DNA of 32,602 bases, taken from positions 1 to 32,602 of IMG/VR virus record IMGVR_UViG_3300021136_000034; one strand, written 5' to 3'. The DNA is from a virus. The notes under the pieces were generated by a model. It worked only from the letters and a program-made list of their open reading frames with translations, was not told where the DNA came from and ran no database searches. The position numbers and the translations under genes are program-made. Positions 3,187 to 30,266 of the stretch are shown piece by piece. Positions within the stretch are counted from its first letter, which is position 1; every line of letters starts with the position of its first letter.

Positions 3187-4128
3187 TCAACTTAAACTCT
3201 TCCGGTATTCTTTCCAGGCTTCGGCGTTATTGACTTCCTCATGTCCCGGCGAATTGACCCCGGTATTCTTATGGCCTTCATCAGAATAGTATTTTTCAGC
3301 CATGGACGGCGGCACGGCAACCAGAGAATGGGTACAGTTTGGATGAAACAGTCCGTCGCTGGTCGCTTCATCCACAGTTACCAGGCCTTCAGTGGCGCCG
3401 GAGATCGACAGCAACGTATTTTCAAAAACGGCGCAGGCCGGGCAGGGGTTGCCGCTGACCGTTACCCGGACAATATCGCTTTCATTGGCGGCGCAGGCAT
3501 CCATATAAGTTGATCTGGAGGCATTCATAAGAACCGTCCGCCCCAGCATGTCGAAGTAAGTTTTGCTGTTCCATTTATAGCCGGACTTATCCACAAAACG
3601 GAAGCCCGGCAGCGCGGTAGCCTCATTCAGCAGTCGCTTGGAAACTTCCGTGCGGGTTTCGCCGGTCAGTGCGGTTTCGCGAAATACCTTTGCCGAAAGA
3701 TTCCGCAGATTCTGGATTTCAGTATCCCGCATCTTCTTTGTCGCTCCCGCGATATCGTTGAATGCCGAATCTACAAAGTATTGAATTCGCTGTTTGTCCA
3801 GACTGCCTAAAACTTGCTCTTTGCCGGGAATACTCAACTCATTTAGCGCCATAAAATAGTAAGATTGTGCCAGATACGGGATAGCATACTGCATTTCATC
3901 CCGGAGTTGCTGCTCATAGTCGGCATATTCCGCCTGAAGCTGTTCACAAAGTTGTACGAGGTATTTTCCGGTATATGGCGCGTTGGAAGACTGGGAATGT
4001 TTGACGATAATTTCCATGACGCGCTTTCTGGCCGCTTCATAGATTTTATCCATTTCGGCAGTTTGCGCGTGAATGAAACTTAATCCTTCCGCGTGACTGG
4101 TCAGCATGTCGTCAATAGGATTACCCAT
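3187..4128 (-). CDS. MuF-type / phage minor capsid protein 2
   Basis: A 313-aa protein with SD GGGAGT 10 bases before ATG. The N-terminal half is helical (EQLQAEYADYEQQLRDEM). The C-terminal half carries the family signature: an R-T segment (LGRTVLMNASRSTYMDAC), then CPAC near residue 230 and HPNCTH near residue 263, matching the Cys/His-rich end of Phage_min_cap2/MuF head morphogenesis proteins. These are minor head components associated with the portal. Its position is odd: it lies after the head-completion genes rather than next to the portal. Confidence 0.75.
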   Translation of the reverse strand: MGNPIDDMLTSHAEGLSFIHAQTAEMDKIYEAARKRVMEIIVKHSQSSNAPYTGKYLVQLCEQLQAEYADYEQQLRDEMQYAIPYLAQSYYFMALNELSIPGKEQVLGSLDKQRIQYFVDSAFNDIAGATKKMRDTEIQNLRNLSAKVFRETALTGETRTEVSKRLLNEATALPGFRFVDKSGYKWNSKTYFDMLGRTVLMNASRSTYMDACAANESDIVRVTVSGNPCPACAVFENTLLSISGATEGLVTVDEATSDGLFHPNCTHSLVAVPPSMAEKYYSDEGHKNTGVNSPGHEEVNNAEAWKEYRKSLS

Positions 4129-4835: not shown

Positions 4836-6040
4836 TTCTGCTTGCCCTTTGCTTTTGGTTTGACAACTTTGGTGGCTTTCGGTAGGTTGAAAGACGGCAC
4901 GGGCGGGGCCGCCGGAACTGGCGCGGCTGCCGGAGCTGCCGGTGGCATTTTCGGCGGTTCAGGATTAACCGGAACAATCGGCGACGGTTCGACGGCAAGA
5001 AGATCCTTTTTTATTTCCGCTTCAATCTGTTCGAAAGTATATGACGGCGGAAACGTTCTAACCTGTACGCCGCCGTTGTCAACCTTAAATGTCGCGGTGG
5101 CGTTCTGGCTGTTGTGAATGATGCCTAAAAATTTAATGTTCATTGCTCGTTCCTTTGCTTTATTGACGCAATCCTCAAAGATCGCTTCGTACTGTTTAAC
5201 TATTTCCTTAACGTTGTGATGTTTTACCGCGAAAGCCCTTGCGCCTGAAGATAGAGCCTGCCGTAAACTTGCATCTTGTTTAAGCTGCTCGATTGCAGAT
5301 TGAATGCTTTCAACTGAACGCTCACAGAACAGAACGTTTTCGCCCTCGGTCATCATTTCGCCATGAAAGCCGGCGCAGCGCGTCGTAATAATTGGAATAC
5401 CGCAGGCCGCGGCTTCCATCAGGGTATTGGAACATCCTTCCCCCTGAGTTGGATGAACAATGCAGTCAATCTGGCCGTAGAACAATTCCCGCATTTGTTC
5501 ATGTGGAATCTGATTATCCTGATACAGTGCGTTTTTCAATTCAACCCCGGCATTCTTACAGGCAATTTCTACCAGGTCATAGCCCTTATACTCCCGGTAT
5601 TTCGGATTGCTGATATTGCCGCAGAATCCAACCGTAAAGGGCCGTTCCGGAATTGATGTAAACGGAATCCACTCATCAAGGTCAATTCCGTTGGGGATGA
5701 GATAGACATTGTCATTTACGGATTTGGCAATCTCATACAGCTTTTGATTAGTGGCGACCAGGCAGAAGCATTTCGACATTTCCTGCAGAAGAGGCGCAAT
5801 CGCGTACACGTTATCGAAATTCTGATTACCGCCCAGCCGGCAGATAGTCCGCAGGCGCTCTTTAAATTTCTTCAACAGTGTTACATTTTGGCTTAATATC
5901 ATGTCATGCCCTTCAAAATTTATACTGTCGCTATAGTTGACAAAAAACCGGCTGAATTGAAGGCCGCTATGTTTTTGCATCTCGCCGAATATCAGCCCCC
6001 AACTCCATTGCGGAGTAAATTCAACGGACAATATTTTCAT
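4832..6040 (-). CDS. GT-B glycosyltransferase with C-terminal proline-rich phage domain
   Basis: A 402-aa protein. The start at 6040 (MKILSVEFTPQW) has a strong AAGGAG 4 bases upstream; the longer 410-aa reading has no better site. Residues about 1-295 are a GT4/GT1-like glycosyltransferase: the signature EGCSNTLMEAAACGIP (about 201-216) supplies the E…E motif that binds the nucleotide sugar, preceded by 'NGID' (about 117-120) and 'GFCGN' (about 138-142). Residues 300-402 form a distinct small beta/helix domain followed by a Pro/Ala-rich, Lys-rich tail. The gene sits among head genes. It may modify a virion protein or a host surface glycan; the acceptor cannot be read from sequence. Confidence 0.82.
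   Translation of the reverse strand: MKILSVEFTPQWSWGLIFGEMQKHSGLQFSRFFVNYSDSINFEGHDMILSQNVTLLKKFKERLRTICRLGGNQNFDNVYAIAPLLQEMSKCFCLVATNQKLYEIAKSVNDNVYLIPNGIDLDEWIPFTSIPERPFTVGFCGNISNPKYREYKGYDLVEIACKNAGVELKNALYQDNQIPHEQMRELFYGQIDCIVHPTQGEGCSNTLMEAAACGIPIITTRCAGFHGEMMTEGENVLFCERSVESIQSAIEQLKQDASLRQALSSGARAFAVKHHNVKEIVKQYEAIFEDCVNKAKERAMNIKFLGIIHNSQNATATFKVDNGGVQVRTFPPSYTFEQIEAEIKKDLLAVEPSPIVPVNPEPPKMPPAAPAAAPVPAAPPVPSFNLPKATKVVKPKAKGKQK
5141..5157 (-). promoter_or_regulatory. Internal ribosome binding site and start inside the glycosyltransferase fusion
   Basis: In frame within the fusion there is an ATG at 5143 (codon 300) preceded by AAAGGA with a 7-base spacer to the ATG. This would give a separate 103-aa product, MNIKFLGIIHN onward, comprising only the proline-rich domain. 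A small protein after the major capsid gene is common in phage head modules, so the short form may be the ancestral product and the glycosyltransferase a later fusion. Confidence 0.45.
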
Positions 6041-13854: not shown

Positions 13855-14580
13855 TTAATTAATTATCCAGCCGCCGTTATGTTTTGGATCAAAAAATCTC
13901 TCCATCATTGTTTCATCTCTGAGTGAATATCTTATAGGAAATATCCACTCAAAGGGGTTATCTGCTGGACTACTAAAACGAATCGGCTCTTCGTTTATAT
14001 TATTAAATGATGCTAATTCAATAAGTCCTGTCTTTTTATTTTTTGAAAACAATCTAAAGGTAAGTTTTTGCCTATCTCTTAATTTAGCAATTACCCTTGA
14101 ACCATCTTGGGGATTTTGTAAATAATTAAAATAAAGAATTGTGCCAGCCGGATAAGTGGTATTGGCAATAGACTTATCTACCCATAGTGCCGCCATTCCT
14201 TCAGATCCCATTGAACTTATCACAGGAGCTTTTCCAACCGCATTGCTGCCATGGCTCAGAAAGTCATCAAATGATTCCAGAGTTCTGTCAAATCTCAAAG
14301 CCTGGGCAGTTCCCACAACCGGGATACTGCTAACCCTATACGGCGGTATTTGTTTTTTTCCTTGGACGACCGGGGCATTATAGATTTTTTCGCATAATTC
14401 ATCTATGGACACGCCGAGAATATCGCATATTTTTTGATGGTATTTCACTGGCACAGCCTTGGTGCCGCGCTCCCAGTTTGAAATATTAGGTTTTTTGATT
14501 TCAAGTTTTGACGCAAGCTCTTCTTGTGAGATACCATTACTTTTTCTAATGTGACTAAGTTTGGTCGGGCTGATAATCAT
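13855..14580 (-). CDS. CI-type repressor: XRE HTH with S24-like C-terminal domain
   Basis: A 241-aa protein. Residues 7-62 are an XRE helix-turn-helix (ISQEELASKLEIKKPNISNWERG). After a linker comes IPVVGTAQAL and an S24-like fold: DKSIANTTYPAGTILYF (S137 in the place of the catalytic Ser) and VIAKLRDRQKLTFRLF. The usual Ala-Gly scissile pair appears as A94-L95 and the catalytic Lys position seems to be R176, so RecA-stimulated self-cleavage may be lost. It faces the early operon across two operators and is expected to maintain lysogeny. SD GCGAGG. Confidence 0.88.
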   Translation of the reverse strand: MIISPTKLSHIRKSNGISQEELASKLEIKKPNISNWERGTKAVPVKYHQKICDILGVSIDELCEKIYNAPVVQGKKQIPPYRVSSIPVVGTAQALRFDRTLESFDDFLSHGSNAVGKAPVISSMGSEGMAALWVDKSIANTTYPAGTILYFNYLQNPQDGSRVIAKLRDRQKLTFRLFSKNKKTGLIELASFNNINEEPIRFSSPADNPFEWIFPIRYSLRDETMMERFFDPKHNGGWIIN

Positions 14581-14931: not shown

Positions 14932-15216
14932 ATGGCAATGAAAATCAATCCAAACAAGTTTACATGTATCAGAAAAAGCAAGAACATTTGCCAAGAAGAA
15001 ATTGCGTCAAAGCTGGGAATTAAAAAACCAAATGTATCAAACTGGGAGCGCGGAACTAAAGCTGTTCCGGTGAAATACCACTATGCGATCTGCCAGATAC
15101 TTGGCGTATCGTTCGAGGAACTTTGCCGTGAATACCGTGAGCCGGTAGCGCCGTCACGCGGCGGCGGCTATGTCTTGACCAGTCCGCAACCGTCTATAAC
15201 AATAACGGTCAAATAG
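14932..15216 (+). CDS. Cro-like XRE regulator, paralog of the repressor HTH
   Basis: A 94-aa protein with SD GAGGATCAGGA. Residues 9-66 are an XRE HTH. The recognition region IKKPNVSNWERGTKAVPVKYH differs from the repressor's by a single V/I change, and even the DNA is closely alike there. It lacks any S24 domain and ends in a short G/S/P-rich tail. This is the arrangement expected for Cro competing with CI for the same operators. An alternative start two codons downstream is possible. Confidence 0.85.
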   Translation: MAMKINPNKFTCIRKSKNICQEEIASKLGIKKPNVSNWERGTKAVPVKYHYAICQILGVSFEELCREYREPVAPSRGGGYVLTSPQPSITITVK

Positions 15217-19628: not shown

Positions 19629-20147
19629 ATGGCATTCAACAAAGTTATTGTGATCGGCAATTTGACCCGCGATCTGGAAATCCGTTACACGTCAGCAGGC
19701 AAGGCAGTCGCAAACGTCAGCCTGGCAATCAACCGCAAAAGCGGCGACAAAGACGAAACCACGTTCGTTGAAATCACCGTCTGGGAAAAACAGGCGGAAA
19801 TCTGCGGACAGTATCTTTTCAAAGGATCTCCGGCAATGTTCGAAGGCAGATTGCAGACGGAAAGCTGGCAGGACAAAGACACTGGCGCAAAGCGCTCAAA
19901 AATGATTATTGTTGCCGAAAAAGTTATCCTGCTCGGAAATAAGCAGGATAACAGCGGCGATGGCAACGGCTATGAAGATCAGCAGTCGCCGCCTCAGCAG
20001 CAGCGCCAGCAATACCAGCAACCGCCGCAACGTCCACCAGCAAACCGTCAGCCGGACAACGGCGGGTTTGGCGGCAGTCGCCAAGTACCGCCGATACCGC
20101 AAGAACCGTATCCCGGCAACGATGACGAAGATAACATTCCGTTTTAG
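19629..20147 (+). CDS. ssb: Single-stranded DNA-binding protein
   Basis: A 172-aa SSB with SD AGGAG. The OB fold begins MAFNKVIVIGNLTRDLEIR and includes the conserved FVEITVWEKQAEICGQYLFKG landmarks and a 'GRLQTESWQDKD' strand. After residue ~110 is a Gln/Pro-rich linker and an acidic tip ending DDEDNIPF, the standard SSB tail that recruits partner proteins. Forms tetramers covering phage ssDNA at forks and during recombination. Confidence 0.96.
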   Translation: MAFNKVIVIGNLTRDLEIRYTSAGKAVANVSLAINRKSGDKDETTFVEITVWEKQAEICGQYLFKGSPAMFEGRLQTESWQDKDTGAKRSKMIIVAEKVILLGNKQDNSGDGNGYEDQQSPPQQQRQQYQQPPQRPPANRQPDNGGFGGSRQVPPIPQEPYPGNDDEDNIPF

Positions 20148-21627: not shown

Positions 21628-22416
21628 ATGGCGAAAAGATTTACCGATAATCAAAAATGGCAAAAAGAATCATTTAAAAGTTTATCGACGATTAATAAAT
21701 TGTTCTTTTTATATCTTCTTGACAACTGCGACCATGCTGGAATATGGGAAGTTGAATTAGATGTTGCAGAAATAAGAATTGGAGAAAAAATAGACAGCAA
21801 TGTCGTAAATTCAGAATTAAGCAATTATATACATGTTTTTGACAATGGTAAAAAATGGTTTATTCCTGCTTTTGTGGAATTTCAATATGCAACCCTTAAT
21901 CCTTCCGTCAATGCTCATAAATCAGTCATAGAAATTCTTAAAAAGAGAAATTTAATAAAAATCTATGAACAGTTCATTAACAGTTCATTAACTGTTATGG
22001 ATAAAGACAAAGATAAAGATAAGGATAAAGACAAAGATAACGCGGGTAATAATCCAAAACCACAAGGCGAAAAAATATCCCCATCAAAAGAAATAATTCT
22101 GGCGGCAGAAAGAATATCCAAAAAGCATCCGCGTCTGACAAAACCACAGCGAACCCAGTTTGAAATTATTGCCGCCATCAACAGGGCAATTGAAAAAAAT
22201 ATTCCCGTTGACAAGGCGATTAAGTTTCTGGAAGATCAGACAGAGCTTTATGCCAAGTCAGTAGCCAAGTGGACAAAAGAAGAGCAGCAGTACATTGTCA
22301 ATTCCGAGAACTGGTTCAAGGACGGATGTTACAGTGAAGATCCAAAGCTCTGGCGCAAAGATGGCGATTCCGATGAAGATGATAACGAAGAGTTCGGAAA
22401 CGGAGTAGTTCTCTAA
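21628..22416 (+). CDS. Replisome organiser / replication initiation protein
   Basis: A 262-aa protein with GGAG upstream. The N-terminus (TDNQKWQKESFKSLS, LYLLDNCDHAGIWEVE) is the winged-helix fold of phage replisome organisers (DnaD-like context, O-protein-like role). A central DKD repeat of acidic-basic character (about 124-138) separates it from a helical C-terminal domain. It precedes and overlaps the primase-helicase gene by one base (TAATG), consistent with origin binding and helicase loading. The gene contains a repeat cluster that may be the origin. Confidence 0.75.
   Translation: MAKRFTDNQKWQKESFKSLSTINKLFFLYLLDNCDHAGIWEVELDVAEIRIGEKIDSNVVNSELSNYIHVFDNGKKWFIPAFVEFQYATLNPSVNAHKSVIEILKKRNLIKIYEQFINSSLTVMDKDKDKDKDKDKDNAGNNPKPQGEKISPSKEIILAAERISKKHPRLTKPQRTQFEIIAAINRAIEKNIPVDKAIKFLEDQTELYAKSVAKWTKEEQQYIVNSENWFKDGCYSEDPKLWRKDGDSDEDDNEEFGNGVVL
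21966..22038. repeat. Repeat cluster within the initiator gene, candidate replication origin
   Basis: Two tandem copies of AGTTCATTAAC (21971-21981, 21982-21992), the palindrome TGAAC-A-GTTCA (21966-21976) and the dyad AACAGTT-CATT-AACTGTT (21979-21996) are followed by a purine-rich GATAAA/GACAAA 6-bp repeat (22000-22038). Origins lie inside the initiator gene in several phages, including lambda O. No test of function is possible from sequence alone. Confidence 0.5.
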
Positions 22417-24197
22417 TGAAAAATTTCAGCGATTTCGGAATTGACCTGCCGGATAAATTTAGCGGCGACCGCAAGGCAGAATGTCCGCAGTGCAGCCATA
22501 CCCGGAAAAACAAGCATGAAAAATGTTTGTCGGTGAATGGCGACAGCGGAATCTGGCATTGTCACCACTGCGGATGGAATGGATCGCTTGATGATCACAG
22601 CCAGCCAGTCCCGGAACGCAAGGTTTACCGCCGTCCTGCAGCGGACACAATACCGGCACAGCCGGACATCAGTCCGGAAGTGGCCGGCTGGTTTCACAAA
22701 CGCGGCATATCGGTTAATACGCTCCGGTCGGCAAAGGTTTATTCCTGCGTCCATTATCTCCCAGGAGTCCAAGACGATACTATTTGCATGGCTTTCCCGT
22801 ACTTCCGGGGCGGTGAACTTGTCAATGTCAAATATCGCGATGCCCGGAAAAACATGTCCCAGGAGAAAGACCCGGAACCGTGTCTCTGGAATTTCGACGG
22901 CATTGCCGGCGCGGATGTGGTTTATATCACCGAGGGCGAAATCGACGCGCTGACTTTGATCGAGTGCGATTACCTGACTGCGGTTTCGGTGGACAAAGGC
23001 GCGCCAAACGAAAAGGATAAAAGCGCTGACGGCAAACTGGAGTGCGTCGTCAACTGTCTGGATGCTCTTGTCAATGCATCCCGCGTGATTCTAGTAACAG
23101 ACAAGGACGCGCCCGGCTTGAGACTTGAGACAGAGCTGCTGTCGCGGATAGGCCCGGAGAAATGCTATCTGACGCGGTATCCGTCCGATTGCAAAGACAT
23201 CAATGATGTGCTGATGAAACATGGCCCGGAAGCCGTCCGGGAGTGTATTGAGACCGCCAGACCGGCGCCAGTGCCCGGATTGCGGGATTTTGCGGAGTAC
23301 AAAGCTGACATCATGCGGCTGTACACCAGAGGCAATCCCCGCGGCCTGTCCACCGGATGGCCGGAGTTTGACCAGACGTTCACCCTGCAACCAGGTTCGC
23401 TGAATATTGTCACCGGCATCCCGATGTCCGGTAAAAGTGAATGGGTGCATGCTTTGATGATAAACGCCATCAAATTGCACTCATGGAAAATTGGACTGTT
23501 TTCCCCGGAAATGCTGCCGGTTGAGAATCTGTTTCAGAATTTCGCGGAAAAAATTATCGGCAAGCCGTTTTTCGGTAAAAAAGAAATACGGATGACAGAA
23601 GAGGAACTTGAACGCGCCCTGGCATTTGCTTCAGAGAACATCAAGCCGCTGATTCCGGAAGAGGATAAGACGGCCAGCCTGGAAGATATTATCACGGCGG
23701 CGCGGGTCTGTGTGGCCCGGTACGGCATCAAAGCGCTGGTGATAGATCCATACAACGAACTGGAGCATACCCGCCCGGCGTGGATGAGCGAGACAGAGTA
23801 TATCTCGCTGTTTCTTGGCCGTCTCCGGACGTTTGCCCGGATGCATGAAGTCTGGGTCTGTGTGGTGGCACATCCGACGAAGCTGAAAAAGGATGACCGC
23901 AAAGACGAATACCCGGTACCGAGCCTGTACGATATTTCCGGATCTGCAAACTGGCGCAATAAAGCCGATAACGGCCTGTCATTATGGCGGGCGTTCAAAG
24001 ATAAGAATGCCGGGAATACGGTCGAAGTTCATGTCCAAAAAGTTAAACGCAAAGGTATCGGCCGGCTCGGTAAACAGGTATTCGCCTGGGACTTCGCCAC
24101 CGGAACCTATACCGCAGTTGCAGAATCGGAAAACGGCAAGAAAACCATGAAATCAGAAGATCAGCCGCCGCAGTTACCGCTACATCTTCAATTTTAA
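22416..24197 (+). CDS. Primase-helicase (TOPRIM primase fused to DnaB-like helicase)
   Basis: A 593-aa T7 gp4/Twinkle-type protein. N-terminal zinc site: C23, C26, C49, C52. TOPRIM: VVYITEGEIDALTLIE with E173, then VILVTDKDAPG with D229 and D231. Helicase: Walker A GIPMSGKS (334-341), Walker B LVIDPYNE with D444, then VVAHPTK and DISGSANWRNKADNG landmarks for motifs 3-4. It unwinds the fork and makes primers. The C-terminus ends QLPLHLQF. Start overlaps the upstream stop by one base. Confidence 0.93.
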   Translation: MKNFSDFGIDLPDKFSGDRKAECPQCSHTRKNKHEKCLSVNGDSGIWHCHHCGWNGSLDDHSQPVPERKVYRRPAADTIPAQPDISPEVAGWFHKRGISVNTLRSAKVYSCVHYLPGVQDDTICMAFPYFRGGELVNVKYRDARKNMSQEKDPEPCLWNFDGIAGADVVYITEGEIDALTLIECDYLTAVSVDKGAPNEKDKSADGKLECVVNCLDALVNASRVILVTDKDAPGLRLETELLSRIGPEKCYLTRYPSDCKDINDVLMKHGPEAVRECIETARPAPVPGLRDFAEYKADIMRLYTRGNPRGLSTGWPEFDQTFTLQPGSLNIVTGIPMSGKSEWVHALMINAIKLHSWKIGLFSPEMLPVENLFQNFAEKIIGKPFFGKKEIRMTEEELERALAFASENIKPLIPEEDKTASLEDIITAARVCVARYGIKALVIDPYNELEHTRPAWMSETEYISLFLGRLRTFARMHEVWVCVVAHPTKLKKDDRKDEYPVPSLYDISGSANWRNKADNGLSLWRAFKDKNAGNTVEVHVQKVKRKGIGRLGKQVFAWDFATGTYTAVAESENGKKTMKSEDQPPQLPLHLQF

Positions 24198-24424: not shown

Positions 24425-24592
24425 ATGAAACATAAATGTAACAAATGCGGCTGGACCGGAACTGCCGAAGAAACCCGCAAAGAAGCTTTCGGCATGGGAT
24501 GCCCGGTCTGCTGGACAAAATCCGGCCGCTACATTCCGGTAAAACCAGAGGTATTGAAACCTCAAATTCAAGCTAAGGGATGGAGTATATGA
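24425..24592 (+). CDS. Zinc-ribbon protein
   Basis: A 55-aa protein starting MKHKCNKCGWTG. C5-x2-C8 and GMGCPVCW (two more Cys) form a classic zinc ribbon. The start at 24425 is chosen because the upstream extension is a shadow of the previous gene. Its TGA overlaps the next gene's ATG. Confidence 0.7.
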   Translation: MKHKCNKCGWTGTAEETRKEAFGMGCPVCWTKSGRYIPVKPEVLKPQIQAKGWSI

Positions 24593-25203
24593 AAGAAGCA
24601 AAAAAACATCATTACAACGGCATGGAATTTGACAGTTATGAAGAGATCGAGTTTTTTCAATGGCTGGAAGAGGCAAAAAGTCATGGCTTGATTTCAACTT
24701 TCCAGTTTCATCCGCAACCCTTTGAATTAGCGCCGGCTGCTGCGGTATATGTCCGCAAGCCGCTGGCAACTAAAACGAAAGTAGTGAAAAGACACTTGCT
24801 GCAGGATTGTTGTTATACGGCCGATTTCATGTTTGAAGCCACTCCTGATTTGCAACGGATAAATCACCAGCTATTCAGTCCGGATCACCGCGAATATTGG
24901 ATTGATGTCAAGGGCGTGTTCTCAATGTATAACGATTCCGCAAAATTCTCACTGATTCAGAAATGGATGTGGTCTACGCATGGCGTGTTTATCAATAAAG
25001 TTGTACCGGTGAAATTTTTTGAAAATACTTTTGTTCCGCGTCATGCAGTCCGGACTAAGACCGGGAAACTGCGAGCCTGTTATGTTCACTGCCGTAAAAT
25101 TCATGAAGTACCGGCAGAGCGTAATTTTCCGAATTTGGAAATAGTGCCTCGCCCTGCCGTTCCAGCAGATTTATTTCAGCCAAAAGAAGGCTGGAATTTT
25201 TAA
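24589..25203 (+). CDS. DUF1064-like endonuclease (Holliday junction resolvase-type fold)
   Basis: A 204-aa reading (MKEAKKHHYNGMEFDSYEE…) from the ATG overlapping the previous TGA; an ATG 3 codons upstream is also possible. Landmarks: YNGMEFDSYEEIEFFQWLEE, YTADFMFE and YWIDVKGVFS, with the acidic residues and Lys of a PD-(D/E)XK fold (D…D-x-K). Matches DUF1064-like phage nucleases related to T7 endonuclease I in fold. May process recombination intermediates. C-terminus ends KEGWNF. Confidence 0.75.
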   Translation: MKEAKKHHYNGMEFDSYEEIEFFQWLEEAKSHGLISTFQFHPQPFELAPAAAVYVRKPLATKTKVVKRHLLQDCCYTADFMFEATPDLQRINHQLFSPDHREYWIDVKGVFSMYNDSAKFSLIQKWMWSTHGVFINKVVPVKFFENTFVPRHAVRTKTGKLRACYVHCRKIHEVPAERNFPNLEIVPRPAVPADLFQPKEGWNF

Positions 25204-25238: not shown

Positions 25239-25778
25239 ATGTTGAAAGAACTGGTCGAACTGGCGAAAGCCAAAAAACAAGTGAACATCGCGTTCACGTA
25301 TCTGACGGCAGAGCGTTATCTGCTTGGCATCGCGCCCCAGGGCGCTGGCACTGACAAGATCGCGCCGTTTATCGCAAAGGGCGCAATCGCGGAAATCGAG
25401 ACGCAGCTTGCCGGGCTGAATGCGTATTTCGTCGCCGCACTGGCCAAGAAGCCGGAACCGGTGAAAGAGGCTGATTCGGATGAAGAGGGCGACACTGCCG
25501 GCGCGGAAAAAGTAAAAGATAAAAACTTAGGAGAGAGACAGCCGGCGCCGGATATTGGTAAGCTGACTGAAGCTCCGGAAATTAAAGAGCATAAATGCCG
25601 CGGTTGCAATACCGTCAGATCAGAGGGCGATGTCTGGCCGGAAGTTTATCTGTGTCCTTCTTGCAAAGAACAGAGCGATAATACTCCACCGGGAGCTATC
25701 GAACCCGCCCCGGCAGTTCCGGCAGTTCCGGCAGTTCCGGCAGCCGCGCCAGTCAAACAAGCCACATTTGAATTTTAA
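25239..25778 (+). CDS. PRTRC system protein E-like, with zinc ribbon
   Basis: A 179-aa protein with SD AGGAG. The N-terminal ~70 residues (MLKELVELAKAKKQVNIAFT…) match the start of PRTRC protein E in length and pattern. The rest is a low-complexity linker with a zinc ribbon C120-x2-C123…C139-x2-C142 (KCRGCNTV…CPSCKE) and an Ala-Val-Pro repeat, ending KQATFEF. It opens the PRTRC block. A bridging role between system partners is an inference. Its assignment rests on the neighbouring C protein as much as on its own sequence. Confidence 0.72.
   Translation: MLKELVELAKAKKQVNIAFTYLTAERYLLGIAPQGAGTDKIAPFIAKGAIAEIETQLAGLNAYFVAALAKKPEPVKEADSDEEGDTAGAEKVKDKNLGERQPAPDIGKLTEAPEIKEHKCRGCNTVRSEGDVWPEVYLCPSCKEQSDNTPPGAIEPAPAVPAVPAVPAAAPVKQATFEF
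25712..25738 (+). repeat. Three tandem 9-bp repeats coding for Ala-Val-Pro
   Basis: GGCAGTTCC is repeated three times without change in the linker of the PRTRC E-like gene, giving (AVP)3. Exact DNA identity suggests recent slippage expansion, so the linker length probably varies among relatives. Confidence 0.8.
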
Positions 25779-25805
25779 CCAACCAACCTAAAGGAATTTT
25801 ACATC

Positions 25806-26015
25806 ATGGCTAAGAAAACTGACAAACTCGAACGCGCTTTCACTTTCAACGGCATGACCCTGCCGGATCCGGACGCATCAATGACCACTACCCAGGTACG
25901 TGACTTTTACGCCGGGCAGTATCCGGAACTGAATAACGCCGGGATTAAGGGGCCGACACTGACCAATAATAAAAACGTCTATACGTTTAAAATTCAGACC
26001 GGAACTTTAGGCTGA
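25806..26015 (+). CDS. PRTRC system protein C, ubiquitin-like
   Basis: A 69-aa protein with SD AAAGGAAT. The pattern R-x-F-x-FNGMTLPDPDASMTTTQVRDFYAGQYPEL is diagnostic of PRTRC protein C (shown by landmarks LPDPD, VRDFYAGQYPEL), and the family is known as Prok_Ub, a ubiquitin-like beta-grasp fold. The chain ends TGTLG with a C-terminal Gly (G69), as needed if it is conjugated through its carboxylate. Its partners E1-like ThiF and E2-like B lie in the same block. Covalent conjugation is an inference. Confidence 0.88.
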   Translation: MAKKTDKLERAFTFNGMTLPDPDASMTTTQVRDFYAGQYPELNNAGIKGPTLTNNKNVYTFKIQTGTLG

Positions 26016-26068
26016 TGATATTTAACCGGTGGATGTAACAATCCCCATAAATATGGAATTTGCAATGA

Positions 26069-26242
26069 ATGAAAAAATCAAAAAAACTGGAAGTAAAAAA
26101 GTTTCCGCTGCCGCCAATGGACGACGAAACGGACAGATGCGGAAATGCGCTCGTTCAGGCGTTGGAAATATGGAAGGCGGAAAGCAAGGACGAACTGCCG
26201 GTAATTACAAGCCGTTTGCCGGTTTATCCGGTATTGCCTTAA
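26069..26242 (+). CDS. Small ORF upstream of PRTRC F, overlooked frame
   Basis: A 57-aa ORF (MKKSKKLEVKKFPLPPMDDE…LPVYPVLP). Codon choice (CTG, CCG, GAA, GCG) matches neighbouring genes, whereas the overlapping longer frame reads as Gly/Arg-rich noise. SD is weak (GGA about 12 bases upstream). Its stop lies 2 bases before a TTG that could start the F gene. It may be an independent small protein or the N-terminus of F separated by a frameshift. Confidence 0.55.
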   Translation: MKKSKKLEVKKFPLPPMDDETDRCGNALVQALEIWKAESKDELPVITSRLPVYPVLP

Positions 26243-26244
26243 CG

Positions 26245-27222
26245 TTGCCGAAGATAGTACGGATTCCGGAAGAAGCCCCGGCGACAAGCCTTATTCTTGA
26301 CCGCCTGGAAACTTTCTTGCAAAAGATTATCCCGCATCATTTCCGGAAGACCGATAACAGCAAGACAATCAAAGCGCTGGAACGCTGGACGAATGAGTTT
26401 TTCCCGTCATCAAACCAGCTCGGATATAAATTAATCATCGACAATGAAACATCGGCAATTATGGATTGTGACAACGGCGGGTATGTTCAGCCGCAATACG
26501 GCGACAATAATTTTGCCGGATTAAGTTGCATTCAGGACTTCCGCCGCAGTTTCCTTGTCGGACCGGCATTGACCATGTTTCAAAAACAAAAACGCGGACT
26601 GGGCCGGGACATTCTTACATGCCTGAAAACAGAGGGAATAATCAGTCTTTTTACTCCGGACATGGCCCGCGATGCAGGCCATGATGTCAGTTTACTGTCA
26701 GAGTACAATGCAGAATCAGAACCCAACAAAGAAGAAAGTGAAATTGACAGGGAATTTAAAAAGCAGATTCCAAAATGGTCGCTTGACATCGGCGATGATT
26801 TCGGCACATGGAATGGCAAAGGACCGAAAGAATTAATCGCGGATATGAATATGCTGCATGATTGCAGGGCTGAGTGGAAACGGCTGCTGGAAGATTATAA
26901 ATTCCACTTCCCGGATCCGCCCGGCTTTATCCCTGGCATACTTTTGCGCTGGGTTGAAAAAGATGAAGATGATTATATGCTGCGTTTTTATGACGATATC
27001 GAAAATGAGATATCCAACGAATGGAATCCGATGCAGGGATATTTCATGTTTGAAATAGTTCTGGATCCGCAAGGACAGACCGTTCCGCAGTTATTCAAGT
27101 CTATTTTTGAAACATGGCTTAAATCTATGGAAATACTGGTCAGGATATTGACGCAGCTAGCAAATATCAGCAAAGAAATAATTAAAAAGGAAAAAAGCGG
27201 AAATGAAAGCATTTCTCAGTGA
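26245..27222 (+). CDS. PRTRC system protein F-like
   Basis: A 325-aa reading starting at the TTG at 26245 (LPKIVRIPEEAPATS); the frame is open back to 26029 but residues 1-72 of that version are a shadow of the 57-aa ORF. The start is therefore uncertain. The protein begins with a 'LPKI…P' segment and a helical block and continues with acidic regions (SEIDREFKKQ, RWVEKDEDDYML); its end overlaps gene B by 20 bases. It occupies the slot of PRTRC F (C-F-B order). Role unknown even in the family. Confidence 0.65.
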   Translation: MPKIVRIPEEAPATSLILDRLETFLQKIIPHHFRKTDNSKTIKALERWTNEFFPSSNQLGYKLIIDNETSAIMDCDNGGYVQPQYGDNNFAGLSCIQDFRRSFLVGPALTMFQKQKRGLGRDILTCLKTEGIISLFTPDMARDAGHDVSLLSEYNAESEPNKEESEIDREFKKQIPKWSLDIGDDFGTWNGKGPKELIADMNMLHDCRAEWKRLLEDYKFHFPDPPGFIPGILLRWVEKDEDDYMLRFYDDIENEISNEWNPMQGYFMFEIVLDPQGQTVPQLFKSIFETWLKSMEILVRILTQLANISKEIIKKEKSGNESISQ

Positions 27223-27910
27223 ATATGAAGGCTGTACACTGGAATTGGACCAGGCTCTTTTGATCTATAAAGATGAAAATGGTCAGTGCATGGTAACGAA
27301 CAATAATTATAATCGTGATTCCGGAGAGCTGGAATCAGGGCGCCCTATTAACCGGCAGCGCCTGGCGGAACTAATCGCAATGCTGTCAGATCACGATAAC
27401 AATAAACTTACCTTGATGTCAGACAATCTGCTGGCATTGTCGGCCGGAGCTATTATCTGGTGGAAGCCGGAACATAAAGATAACATTTTCTTTAAAACAT
27501 CCAATAAAAAAGTATCGGCATTGAGCGGGAAAGAAGTAACATGGCCGGCGCTGGTATTCAAAGCAAATTCTGCCGGCATGTTCGTCTATGCCCTGGAACA
27601 TTCGCGGCGACCGGATGCAGATACCCCGTTGCTGATTGCGCCGTTCTGGAATGTTTACAAAGACGGACGAATCTGCTTGCCCGGAGGAAATAAATCATGC
27701 AAGTTCACGCCGTCTCAAATTGAATACAATGAACGGCTGCTTTTCGACAGCGCCTTTACCCACGCAACTGCGGCGGATTTGCAAATAACCTACACTGGCG
27801 GACACGATGCCTTGTGGAGATATATGGCATCATCCAGAGCCCCGGAAAAATTTCCGGTCGAGTTTTTGACCAAATCAGACAAAAAACTAAAGGATTTATG
27901 CAATGATTAA
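27203..27910 (+). CDS. PRTRC system protein B, E2-like
   Basis: A 235-aa protein. The family signature is at residues 142-161: PLLIAPFWNVYKDGRICLPG, here given as APFWNVYKDG and C158. This mirrors the active site of ubiquitin E2 enzymes (HPN-x…G-x-I-C-L), and PRTRC-B is grouped with prokaryotic E2 family D. The N-terminal ~130 residues are the family's own region with strands and an S/T-rich part. It overlaps F and ThiF genes, so translation is coupled. Thioester formation at C158 would be the testable prediction. Confidence 0.85.
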   Translation: MKAFLSEYEGCTLELDQALLIYKDENGQCMVTNNNYNRDSGELESGRPINRQRLAELIAMLSDHDNNKLTLMSDNLLALSAGAIIWWKPEHKDNIFFKTSNKKVSALSGKEVTWPALVFKANSAGMFVYALEHSRRPDADTPLLIAPFWNVYKDGRICLPGGNKSCKFTPSQIEYNERLLFDSAFTHATAADLQITYTGGHDALWRYMASSRAPEKFPVEFLTKSDKKLKDLCND

Positions 27911-28694
27911 AAATACAAAAACATTATTCAAGCATATTCTGCCGGCTGAAATGCTAAAAAACACAATCCGGATTGTCGTGATCGGCGCGGGCGGTACCGG
28001 CTCTCAGATTGCGCACGGACTGGCCAGGCTGCATCTTGCCATGCTTAAATGCGGACATCCATACGGTTTGAGCGTCACGCTTGCGGATGGCGATACAGTA
28101 TCCAAGTCAAACCTTGGGCGGCAGTTGTATTATGGCTCTGACCTTGGACGCAATAAAGCCGCGGTATTGATCGAGCGGTTGAATTTTGCTTATAATCTGG
28201 AATGGCAGGCATATCCTCATAATGTTGACAAGGATTATTTAACCCAGCGCCACACAGATATTGTCATTGGCTGTGTAGATTCGCGCAAATCCAGACGAAT
28301 CATAAAAAGTGTGTTATATAGAATAGTCAGGGATTGCTATTATCTCGATTGCGGCAATGGCGCGGATTATGGTCAGGTATTGCTTGGCTATAAAGAAAGT
28401 TTCAAAAATAAAAAGAACAATCTTCCCATGCCCTGGGAGACCTGCCCGGATCTGATTGCGGACATCAAAGAAGACAATACGCCAAGCTGCTCACTGGCTG
28501 AAGCTCTCGGCAGTCAGGAGCTCTTCATCAACCAGACAGTGGCCACTTGCGCCCTGCAATTACTCTGGTCGCTGTTTCGTCACGGCGGGCTGGACATTCG
28601 CGGGTATTACATCAACCTGAAGACTGGCCGGACGCTGCCGGTGGCGATTGAAGCAAAAAAAGTTGAAAGCAAGAAAAGCGAGAAAAGTAAATAA
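27903..28694 (+). CDS. PRTRC system ThiF-family protein, E1-like
   Basis: A 263-aa adenylation-type enzyme. Landmarks: VVIGAGGTGSQ (G28-S34, nucleotide loop), LADGDTVSKSNLGRQ (D62, D64, N70, R73, Q74), K85 after 'DLGRN', and VDSRKSR with D126. C196 in TPSCSL sits in the crossover region where E1 enzymes carry the catalytic Cys. It overlaps gene B by 8 bases. It should adenylate the C-terminal Gly of the ubiquitin-like C protein and transfer it through thioesters. C-terminus is Lys/Ser-rich. Confidence 0.9.
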   Translation: MIKNTKTLFKHILPAEMLKNTIRIVVIGAGGTGSQIAHGLARLHLAMLKCGHPYGLSVTLADGDTVSKSNLGRQLYYGSDLGRNKAAVLIERLNFAYNLEWQAYPHNVDKDYLTQRHTDIVIGCVDSRKSRRIIKSVLYRIVRDCYYLDCGNGADYGQVLLGYKESFKNKKNNLPMPWETCPDLIADIKEDNTPSCSLAEALGSQELFINQTVATCALQLLWSLFRHGGLDIRGYYINLKTGRTLPVAIEAKKVESKKSEKSK

Positions 28695-29510
28695 ATGAAA
28701 CGGTCATTATTCAGATACTTGGGCGGTAAATGGCGCGTGGCTCCGTGGATCGTCAGTTTTTTCCCGCAGCATCAGCAATACGTTGAACCGTTTGCCGGCG
28801 CCGCGTCAGTGCTGTTTAAAAAGGAAAGATGTTATTCTGAAACTATCAATGATTTGAATGAAGAGGTAATCAACTTTTACCGAGTCCTGCAGGATGAACA
28901 ATTATCATCAAGACTGGAAACCTTGATACGGTTAACGCCATACAGCCGGAATGAGTATATCCTTGCCCATAACAAATCCGATGAGTCGATAGAGCGCGCC
29001 AGGCGGTTGCTGATCCGTTCGCTGATGAGTTATAACGCAACATCAATGTTCGACTGCAACAGTCAGTCAGGCTTCAGGATGGACATCAAAAAACGGTATT
29101 CAATCCCGTCGCATGACTGGGCGCGGTATCCGGATAATATGGCTTTATTCATCAACCGGCTGCGCGGCGTCACTGTCGAGAATACGGATGCATTCAGCCT
29201 GATTGAGAGGACGGATGACCCGGACACGCTGTTTTATCTGGACCCGCCCTACGTCGAACATACCCGGACGGACAAAAACAAGAACCAGTACGCTTTTGAG
29301 TTTTCAGACGAAGACCATAAACGGCTGGTTGAATTGATTCTGTCGCTCCGGGGCATGGTTATCATCAGCGGTTACGATTCGCCGCTCTATCAGCCGCTTG
29401 AGGCCGCGGGCTGGAGCAAAGAGCAGAAGACTTTCCAGATCAACTATTCCGGCATCCGGATAGAATGTCTCTGGATCAAACCAATTAAAAAAGTAACATT
29501 TACATTTTAA
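28695..29510 (+). CDS. dam: DNA adenine methyltransferase, D12 (Dam) class
   Basis: A 271-aa enzyme, immediately after ThiF. Motif I region FRYLGGKWR…YVEPFAGAASVLF (EPFAGAAS at 31-38) and motif IV DPPY (183-186) define the alpha-class N6-adenine methyltransferases. The spacing matches Dam (recognises GATC in many members; the specificity here cannot be read). No restriction partner is adjacent, so anti-restriction or gene regulation is more likely. Ends KKVTFTF. Confidence 0.9.
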   Translation: MKRSLFRYLGGKWRVAPWIVSFFPQHQQYVEPFAGAASVLFKKERCYSETINDLNEEVINFYRVLQDEQLSSRLETLIRLTPYSRNEYILAHNKSDESIERARRLLIRSLMSYNATSMFDCNSQSGFRMDIKKRYSIPSHDWARYPDNMALFINRLRGVTVENTDAFSLIERTDDPDTLFYLDPPYVEHTRTDKNKNQYAFEFSDEDHKRLVELILSLRGMVIISGYDSPLYQPLEAAGWSKEQKTFQINYSGIRIECLWIKPIKKVTFTF

Positions 29511-29528: not shown

Positions 29529-30266
29529 ATGGCTAAACTATCGAAACAGGAAATTAAACAGCATGAAGCGGCATTGAAGCTGCTGGAAAAGGATGTGTTG
29601 AGCATTGATGATAAGTTTTTTGTTCTGGAAAACTACTGTCCGGACGCAGCGCACGTCGTTTCAAAATTTGGCGCGTTCTTTACGCCGGTCGTCCTGGCAA
29701 GGGATTTTGCTATCGAATGCAATTCATTCAGCAGGATCGTTGATCTTTGCGCCGGAATCGGGGCGCTGTCTTTTGCCGCCTGTCGATATGGTGATGGCGA
29801 GGGAATAACCTGCGTCGAACTGAATGACGAATATCTGGAAATCGGGAAAAAGATATTGCCGAAAGCGACTTGGATACATGCAGACGTTTTAAGCGATGAA
29901 GTAAGGGCACTGCGCGGCTTTGAAATGGCAATCAGCAACCCGCCATTCGGAAATATTGCCAAACAGGGAAGCTTTGAATATGCAGTTATAAAAATTGCCT
30001 CGCAGATAGCAGGTATGGGATGTTTCATCCTGCCGCAGATGTCAACGCCGTTCAAATACTCAGGCAACAGCAATTACGAAGAGAGAGAAAATGACAAGTA
30101 TTTGAAGTTTTCAAAAGATACTGGCATTGAGTTTGAATTCAATTGCGGAATTGATACGTCTGTCTATCTGAATGATTGGAAAGGCGTATCTCCGATGTGT
30201 GAAATCGTAGTCTGTGATTTTACGGCAGTAAAAAAAGCAGTAAAACAACCAACATTTACATGGTGA
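29529..30266 (+). CDS. Second N6-adenine-type methyltransferase
   Basis: A 245-aa protein with SD AAGGAAACAGGA. Motif I VDLCAGIGAL (71-80), an acidic loop (CVELNDEYLEIG, about 95-106) and motif IV NPPFGN (137-142) mark a class I methyltransferase with the NPPF catalytic motif of N6-adenine enzymes. The N-terminus has an FTP turn (51-53) also seen in such enzymes. Substrate may be DNA; a protein or RNA target cannot be excluded. Ends KQPTFTW. Confidence 0.85.
   Translation: MAKLSKQEIKQHEAALKLLEKDVLSIDDKFFVLENYCPDAAHVVSKFGAFFTPVVLARDFAIECNSFSRIVDLCAGIGALSFAACRYGDGEGITCVELNDEYLEIGKKILPKATWIHADVLSDEVRALRGFEMAISNPPFGNIAKQGSFEYAVIKIASQIAGMGCFILPQMSTPFKYSGNSNYEERENDKYLKFSKDTGIEFEFNCGIDTSVYLNDWKGVSPMCEIVVCDFTAVKKAVKQPTFTW

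Follow-up and report, generated by a model that had tools for sequence, protein, structure and literature searches.

A PRTRC cassette lacking a JAB peptidase gene in the replication operon of a putative Lentisphaeria phage

Gene content and family assignment of the cassette

The IMG/VR virus record IMGVR_UViG_3300021136_000034, analyzed here over its entire length of 32,602 bases (hereafter the window), carries on its plus strand, at positions 25239-28694, a block of five genes of the PRTRC (ParB-related, ThiF-related cassette) type in the order E-C-F-B-ThiF (Table 1). This block, with its overlaps between F and B (-20 nt) and between B and ThiF (-8 nt), had been recognized in a preliminary description made from the sequence, and is borne out by our analysis. 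All five frames are open in the window. Given these overlaps, the short gaps between E and C (27 nt) and between C and F (13 nt), and a methylase gene lying directly at the end of ThiF, the cassette and this Dam-type methylase look like a single transcription unit, and the two are probably co-transcribed.

The PRTRC identity of the cassette is firm. Protein C (83.4 bits versus a curated NCBIfam cut-off of 45.95 for TIGR03738; Pfam Prok_Ub, 1.3e-25), protein B (156.8 bits versus 131.45 for TIGR03737; Pfam Prok-E2_D, 7.5e-33) and ThiF (280.7 bits versus 144.75 for TIGR03736; Pfam ThiF, 9e-19) all score above their family thresholds, and the solved chains nearest to ThiF are those of eukaryotic E1 enzymes. 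The names initially proposed for these three proteins therefore stand, that of F is more weakly backed, and that of E relies on position and one phage relative. F (TIGR03742) had no match in the NCBIfam and Pfam libraries and its model matched no solved fold (Foldseek against the PDB), yet a profile from which the window and its closest relative had been excluded recovered the protein at 2.7e-4, and at 1.8e-3 when four further relatives were also left out. A comparable leave-out profile did not recover E (0.26), whose assignment rests on its position, its size, and a gene 42% identical to it at the same place in the phage relative L010. E consists of a diverged N-terminal domain, a disordered linker, a CxxC...CxxC insert and a C-terminus ending in ...KQATFEF. 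Two CxxC motifs, forming a zinc ribbon-like insert ahead of the C-terminal motif, are present in 2 of 104 E proteins, namely that of the window (residues 120-142) and that of L010 (L010:7115-7795). The Pro/Ala/Val repeat of E also holds one arm of a 44-nt inverted repeat (82%, with a 26-nt core at 96%; 4899-4942 and 25710-25753), the other arm of which lies in a minus-strand glycosyltransferase-like gene.

Table 1. Genes of the PRTRC cassette and neighboring genes in the window
Feature	Coordinates	Strand	Evidence and remarks
PRTRC protein E-like, 179 aa	25239..25778	+	Position before C; L010 homologue 42%; TIGR03741 below cut-off
PRTRC protein C, ubiquitin-like modifier, 69 aa	25806..26015	+	TIGR03738, Prok_Ub; ends ...GTLG, without C-terminal extension
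PRTRC protein F, diverged, 397 aa	26029..27222	+	Leave-out profile, size, place; GTG start uncertain
PRTRC protein B, E2-like, 235 aa	27203..27910	+	TIGR03737, Prok-E2_D; N150, C158, H187
PRTRC ThiF, E1-like, 263 aa	27903..28694	+	TIGR03736; GxGGxG, D64, R73, K85, D126, C196
Single-strand DNA-binding protein	19629..20147	+	phrog_44 3.3e-37; tail ...DDEDNIPF
Primase/helicase (replication module)	22416..24197	+	phrog_239 9.3e-95; 53% in L143
DUF1064 / Holliday-junction-resolvase-like protein	24580..25203	+	PF06356 6e-7; phrog_190 1.8e-10
Dam/D12-type N6-adenine methylase	28695..29510	+	MethyltransfD12 6.3e-30; starts 0 nt after ThiF
Second DNA methyltransferase	29529..30266	+	phrog_3820 2.1e-91

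Conservation of the active sites

Conservation was counted over 107-117 loci, depending on the protein. The pattern WNVYKDGRICL, pointed out earlier as the active site of B, corresponds to residues 149-159. The preliminary description had made its reading depend on C158 of B, C196 of ThiF and G69 of C, and these residues turn out to be kept in 113/114, 117/117 and 106/107 sequences. N150 and H187 of B are likewise each retained in 113 of the 114 relatives, D64, R73, K85 and D126 of ThiF each in at least 115 of 117, and G66 of C in 105 of 107. A conserved His downstream of the Cys is a hallmark of this type of E2 (Iyer et al., 2006; PMC1779556), a signature that H187 of the window protein matches. 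Placed by hhalign, the PxxNVxxxGxIC motif of B falls on the HPN...C site of E2 enzymes (prob 34, P 4e-4); among viral structure models, B matched three uncharacterised proteins. The one qualification comes from two further Lentisphaeria loci, L142:6188-6427 and L144:7064-7270, which encode C proteins devoid of a terminal Gly (ending in GTFR and GNFN), with ThiF and B intact alongside.

JAB, ParB and D in the window and in its phage relatives

Searches of this partial 32.6-kb record with the PRTRC_A, Prok-JAB, PRTRC_parB and PRTRC_D profiles gave no match, in agreement with what had been noted from the sequence. The nearest prophage relative, L143, lies in a Lentisphaeria genome, on a contig of 51.9 kb, and shares with the window its terminase (55%), primase-helicase (53%) and portal (48%); it also encodes E-C-F-B-ThiF without A. 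Neither PRTRC_A nor PRTRC_D was found in the whole genome harboring this prophage, while control genomes were positive, and a ParB profile of our own found no match on the prophage contig. The same five genes, again without A, are present in the phage relatives L010 and L009, which cluster with the window on the ThiF tree (SH-aLRT 94). Minor head proteins of the related L143/L145 prophage show a JAMM-like motif, which proved to be a chance N-terminal match and not a JAB. The two paralogous MuF-like minor head proteins of this prophage (L145:11260-12939 and L143:5556-7343) carry long, differing C-terminal extensions, one of them with an HExxH-like stretch, and the window copy (3187-4128) has no extension.

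Distribution of the cassette and of its JAB-less form

Phage carriage of PRTRC genes and the lack of a JAB gene had both been emphasized in the preliminary description, but neither is unprecedented. The isolated Burkholderia phage BgVeeders33 (OK665841) encodes E-C-F-B-A-ThiF, with every member above its cut-off, and about 18 related IMG/VR contigs carry this set as well. The five-gene form without JAB is seen in Acidobacteriota, Bacteroidota, Lentisphaerota, Verrucomicrobiota, Peregrinibacteria and several viral contigs. It is common in Acidobacteriota and Lentisphaerota and the rule in Bacteroidota, where a PRTRC ThiF occurs in 16 of 396 genomes and A is missing from 20 of the 20 loci examined. 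A search for A over the whole of 27 other JAB-less PRTRC genomes or records found none (controls, 3/3 positive), so that A is not required in practice for PRTRC membership. Its presence changes about five times on the ThiF tree, and ParB is found mainly at proteobacterial plasmid loci among those sampled. The JAB-less variant is thus a recurrent subtype, older and wider than the window phage, and not the product of phage streamlining.

Single-sequence scans of the viral and genome collections gave no relatives; scans with alignments succeeded. We dropped pPRO1, which had looked JAB-less, from that list because its A lies on the far side of the record origin, two genes downstream of ThiF. We also set aside ten viral contigs (L041-L050) in which a different, conserved phage gene cluster surrounds a short, 184-aa ThiF-like protein unrelated to PRTRC. 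A human-gut phage contig (L004:13021-15781) has a distant JAB-ThiF-sliding clamp operon with a separate E2-like B.

The C-terminus of C differs between loci with and without JAB. None of the 28 JAB-less loci with a scorable C encodes a C-terminal extension, versus 53 of the 79 JAB-bearing loci, in which it amounts to 2-100 residues past the Gly; the 19 Bacteroidota C proteins likewise end in ...KG. By count this association is clear. It fits A being a maturation peptidase that may be dispensed with where C is encoded in mature form, but is suggestive and not proof.

Genomic context and host

The left half of the window, on the minus strand, encodes terminase, portal, scaffold, major head and minor head proteins, and the right half, on the plus strand, an Erf-like annealing protein, an exonuclease, NinB, a single-strand DNA-binding protein (SSB), an endonuclease, a primase-helicase and a DUF1064 protein, followed by the five PRTRC genes and two DNA methyltransferases. 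These neighbors bear out the phage context and the early/replication-region location previously given to the cassette. The DUF1064 neighbor is kept in the phage relatives L010 (67%), L009 (36%) and L143 (40%). The tail module present in the nearest prophage relative is missing from this partial contig. A divergent repressor region (~13.9-15.2 kb) separates the two halves; an inverted repeat of 189 nt (71% complementary; 14392-14580 and 14938-15126) covers the repressor gene and a divergent open reading frame, which are perhaps paralogous regulators. The phage is probably temperate. Its host can be assigned with fair confidence to Lentisphaeria, because the related prophage sits in a Lentisphaeria genome.

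Replication genes also accompany the cassette elsewhere. In 16 of 20 Bacteroidota loci, the cassette is preceded at a distance of 5-7 kb by an SSB gene on the same strand, and in the window this distance is about 9 kb; a primosomal protein and RecT accompany it in L009/L010; genes for DnaN-like sliding clamps directly adjoin the cassette in four loci (L033, L142, L004 and L120) and are near it in L036. An N6-adenine methylase of family phrog_5696 recurs by PRTRC cassettes as well, overlapping the end of ThiF in L010 (L010:10711-11544) and lying about 6.8 kb upstream of ThiF in 14 Burkholderiaceae loci.

The tails of the E proteins are variable and disordered. Nevertheless, 19 of 26 non-redundant tails carry a hydrophobic motif (a pair) near their end, versus 5.5 in shuffled tails, and Bacteroidota tails kept aside as a held-out set gave the same picture (5/9 versus 0.76 expected). 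The window protein ends in ...QATFEF and its relatives in ...QGELSLF, QTLSLF, QPLNLF or DLASLF. As the bacterial clamp-binding consensus is QL(S/D)LF (PMC9690074, PMC4549789), several of these tails look like clamp-binding motifs.

A putative ubiquitin-like relay at the replication machinery

The window thus carries an authentic and apparently functional JAB-less PRTRC cassette in the replication operon of a probable Lentisphaeria phage, and we consider it reasonably probable that this cassette constitutes a ubiquitin-like conjugation relay acting at the replication machinery with E as an adaptor. ThiF would adenylate Gly69, the free C-terminal residue of C, and hold C as a thioester on C196; C would then be handed to the E2-like B, on C158, with N150 and H187 assisting, and B would join it to a protein of the replication or recombination machinery on which E, as a flexible adaptor, may dock. 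Encoded with no C-terminal extension, C would need no maturation. As the cassette includes no JAB isopeptidase, the tag would stay in place permanently unless the host took it off. The replication neighbors and the clamp motif-like E tails are the reasons for which we favor this relay; they also lend circumstantial support to the earlier inference that phage or host replication proteins may be tagged. With respect to the target and the clamp, we hypothesize further that PRTRC might be a sliding-clamp or replication-fork tagging system of mobile elements, in which E would dock on the beta clamp via its C-terminal motif and steer ThiF and B so that C is joined irreversibly to the clamp itself or to a protein bound to it, thereby favoring replication of the element. 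We propose this extension, which would resemble PCNA ubiquitination or SUMOylation in its logic, tentatively and regard it as unlikely.

Several observations weigh against a conjugation relay at the replication machinery. When B was modelled with AlphaFold (pLDDT 89), Foldseek matched the structure to no E2 of the PDB (best E 0.28), and the profile match of B to E2 enzymes is short, weak and confined to the active-site segment; conjugation is therefore likely but unproven. C has no sequence match to any solved ubiquitin fold, and in the two Lentisphaeria loci L142 and L144 it lacks Gly69. E scores below its family cut-off (TIGR03741, 13.6 bits versus 37.95). Of 150 loci about 5 are flanked by clamp genes, and of the 20 Bacteroidota loci none is, so that the clamp link is not general. 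The tree holds about one informative independent contrast for the association of C extensions with JAB, and with so few contrasts a tree-based test fell short of significance. Finally, the papers found contained no biochemistry of any PRTRC member, and the true mentions of PRTRC examined were annotation only.

Some of the same features could be accommodated by other functions. The classical role of ThiF-like E1 enzymes is to serve sulfur carriers, and if C were a ThiS/MoaD-like protein activated by ThiF, the cassette might modify nucleic acids or cofactors with sulfur instead of conjugating proteins. The B model, which matches no E2 by fold, would fit, as would the PAPS-reductase-family genes (phrog_424) found on the same strand downstream of ThiF in L005, L075, L141 and L144. 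However, such genes neighbor only 9 of 147 loci, mostly on the opposite strand, with none found near the window cassette, and B keeps a virtually invariant E2-type Cys/Asn/His set, which makes a sulfur carrier distinctly unlikely. That the cassette would be a plasmid-derived remnant shedding its genes after uptake by a phage, JAB and ParB first, is highly improbable: E and F of the window are strongly diverged, but every frame is open, the catalytic residues are intact and kept in three phage relatives, and the JAB-less form is an old and widespread state in several phyla.

A role in conflict between phage and host is suggested by the early-region operon, with two DNA methylases directly downstream as typical counter-restriction neighbors, and by the related E1/E2/JAB chemistry of the bacterial defences CBASS and Bil (PMC10097602, PMC11354881). 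By tagging with C, the phage could then disable a protein of host defence or of host replication. This is possible, if rather unlikely, given that the same cassette is found on plasmids and conjugative elements with replication and partition genes and without consistent anti-defence neighbors. PADLOC made no call for B, C, E or F of the window and named no defence system, its matches to ThiF being generic E1-E2 ones and a weak one to BilD (1.4e-4). The BilD match and the modifier-E1-E2 logic common to Bil (ISG15-like) and CBASS type II would also accord with a prophage-borne defence shielding the lysogen from other phages, as Bil does. Yet the cassette lies in the rightward replication operon, which is not a typical moron site, is kept at the same place in diverged phages and has no JAB; we hold such a defence role to be improbable.

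For nearly two decades, PRTRC genes have appeared in the annotation of hundreds of plasmids without, to our knowledge, being given a function. New here are the unextended C in all JAB-less cassettes, the company that the cassette keeps with replication genes, and the recurrent motif of the E tails. Together with phage carriage, its conservation in a phage lineage and the width of the JAB-less form, the logic of C maturation and the SSB, primase and clamp neighbors turn an anonymous cassette into one that yields testable questions, among them its link to replication forks. If the relay at replication forks holds true, this would be the first mobile element, as far as we know, to tag proteins at bacterial replication forks.

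Comparison with known systems

Bil and CBASS type II (Cap2/Cap3) share the bacterial modifier/E1/E2 logic with the window, but employ other E1 and E2 families, include a JAB protein and serve in defence. The closest described system is PRTRC itself (TIGR03734-03742), known from plasmids as operon type 6d of Iyer, Burroughs and Aravind (2006), with which the window has in common the E-C-F-B-ThiF order, a ubiquitin-like C ending in Gly, an E2-like B with a conserved downstream His, and an E1-like ThiF. It departs from the plasmid cassettes in having no A, ParB or D, in its strongly diverged E and F, and in its location in a phage replication operon; such operons were described as having in every case a JAB gene, either fused or adjacent (PMC1779556), unlike the window. 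The cassette of BgVeeders33, a phage of the same size, differs by A (JAB) between B and ThiF, by a C extended by 62 residues and by a ThiF 42% identical to that of the window, while its E, C, F, B and ThiF all exceed the family cut-offs. In Bacteroides thetaiotaomicron, BT2645-BT2649 encode, in a run and in the context of a conjugative element, PRTRC E, a hypothetical protein, an E2 of family D and ThiF (PMC10434189). This locus is not that of a phage and its E tails differ, but its E2 (BT2648) and ThiF (BT2649) genes are consecutive with no JAB between them, as in the window.

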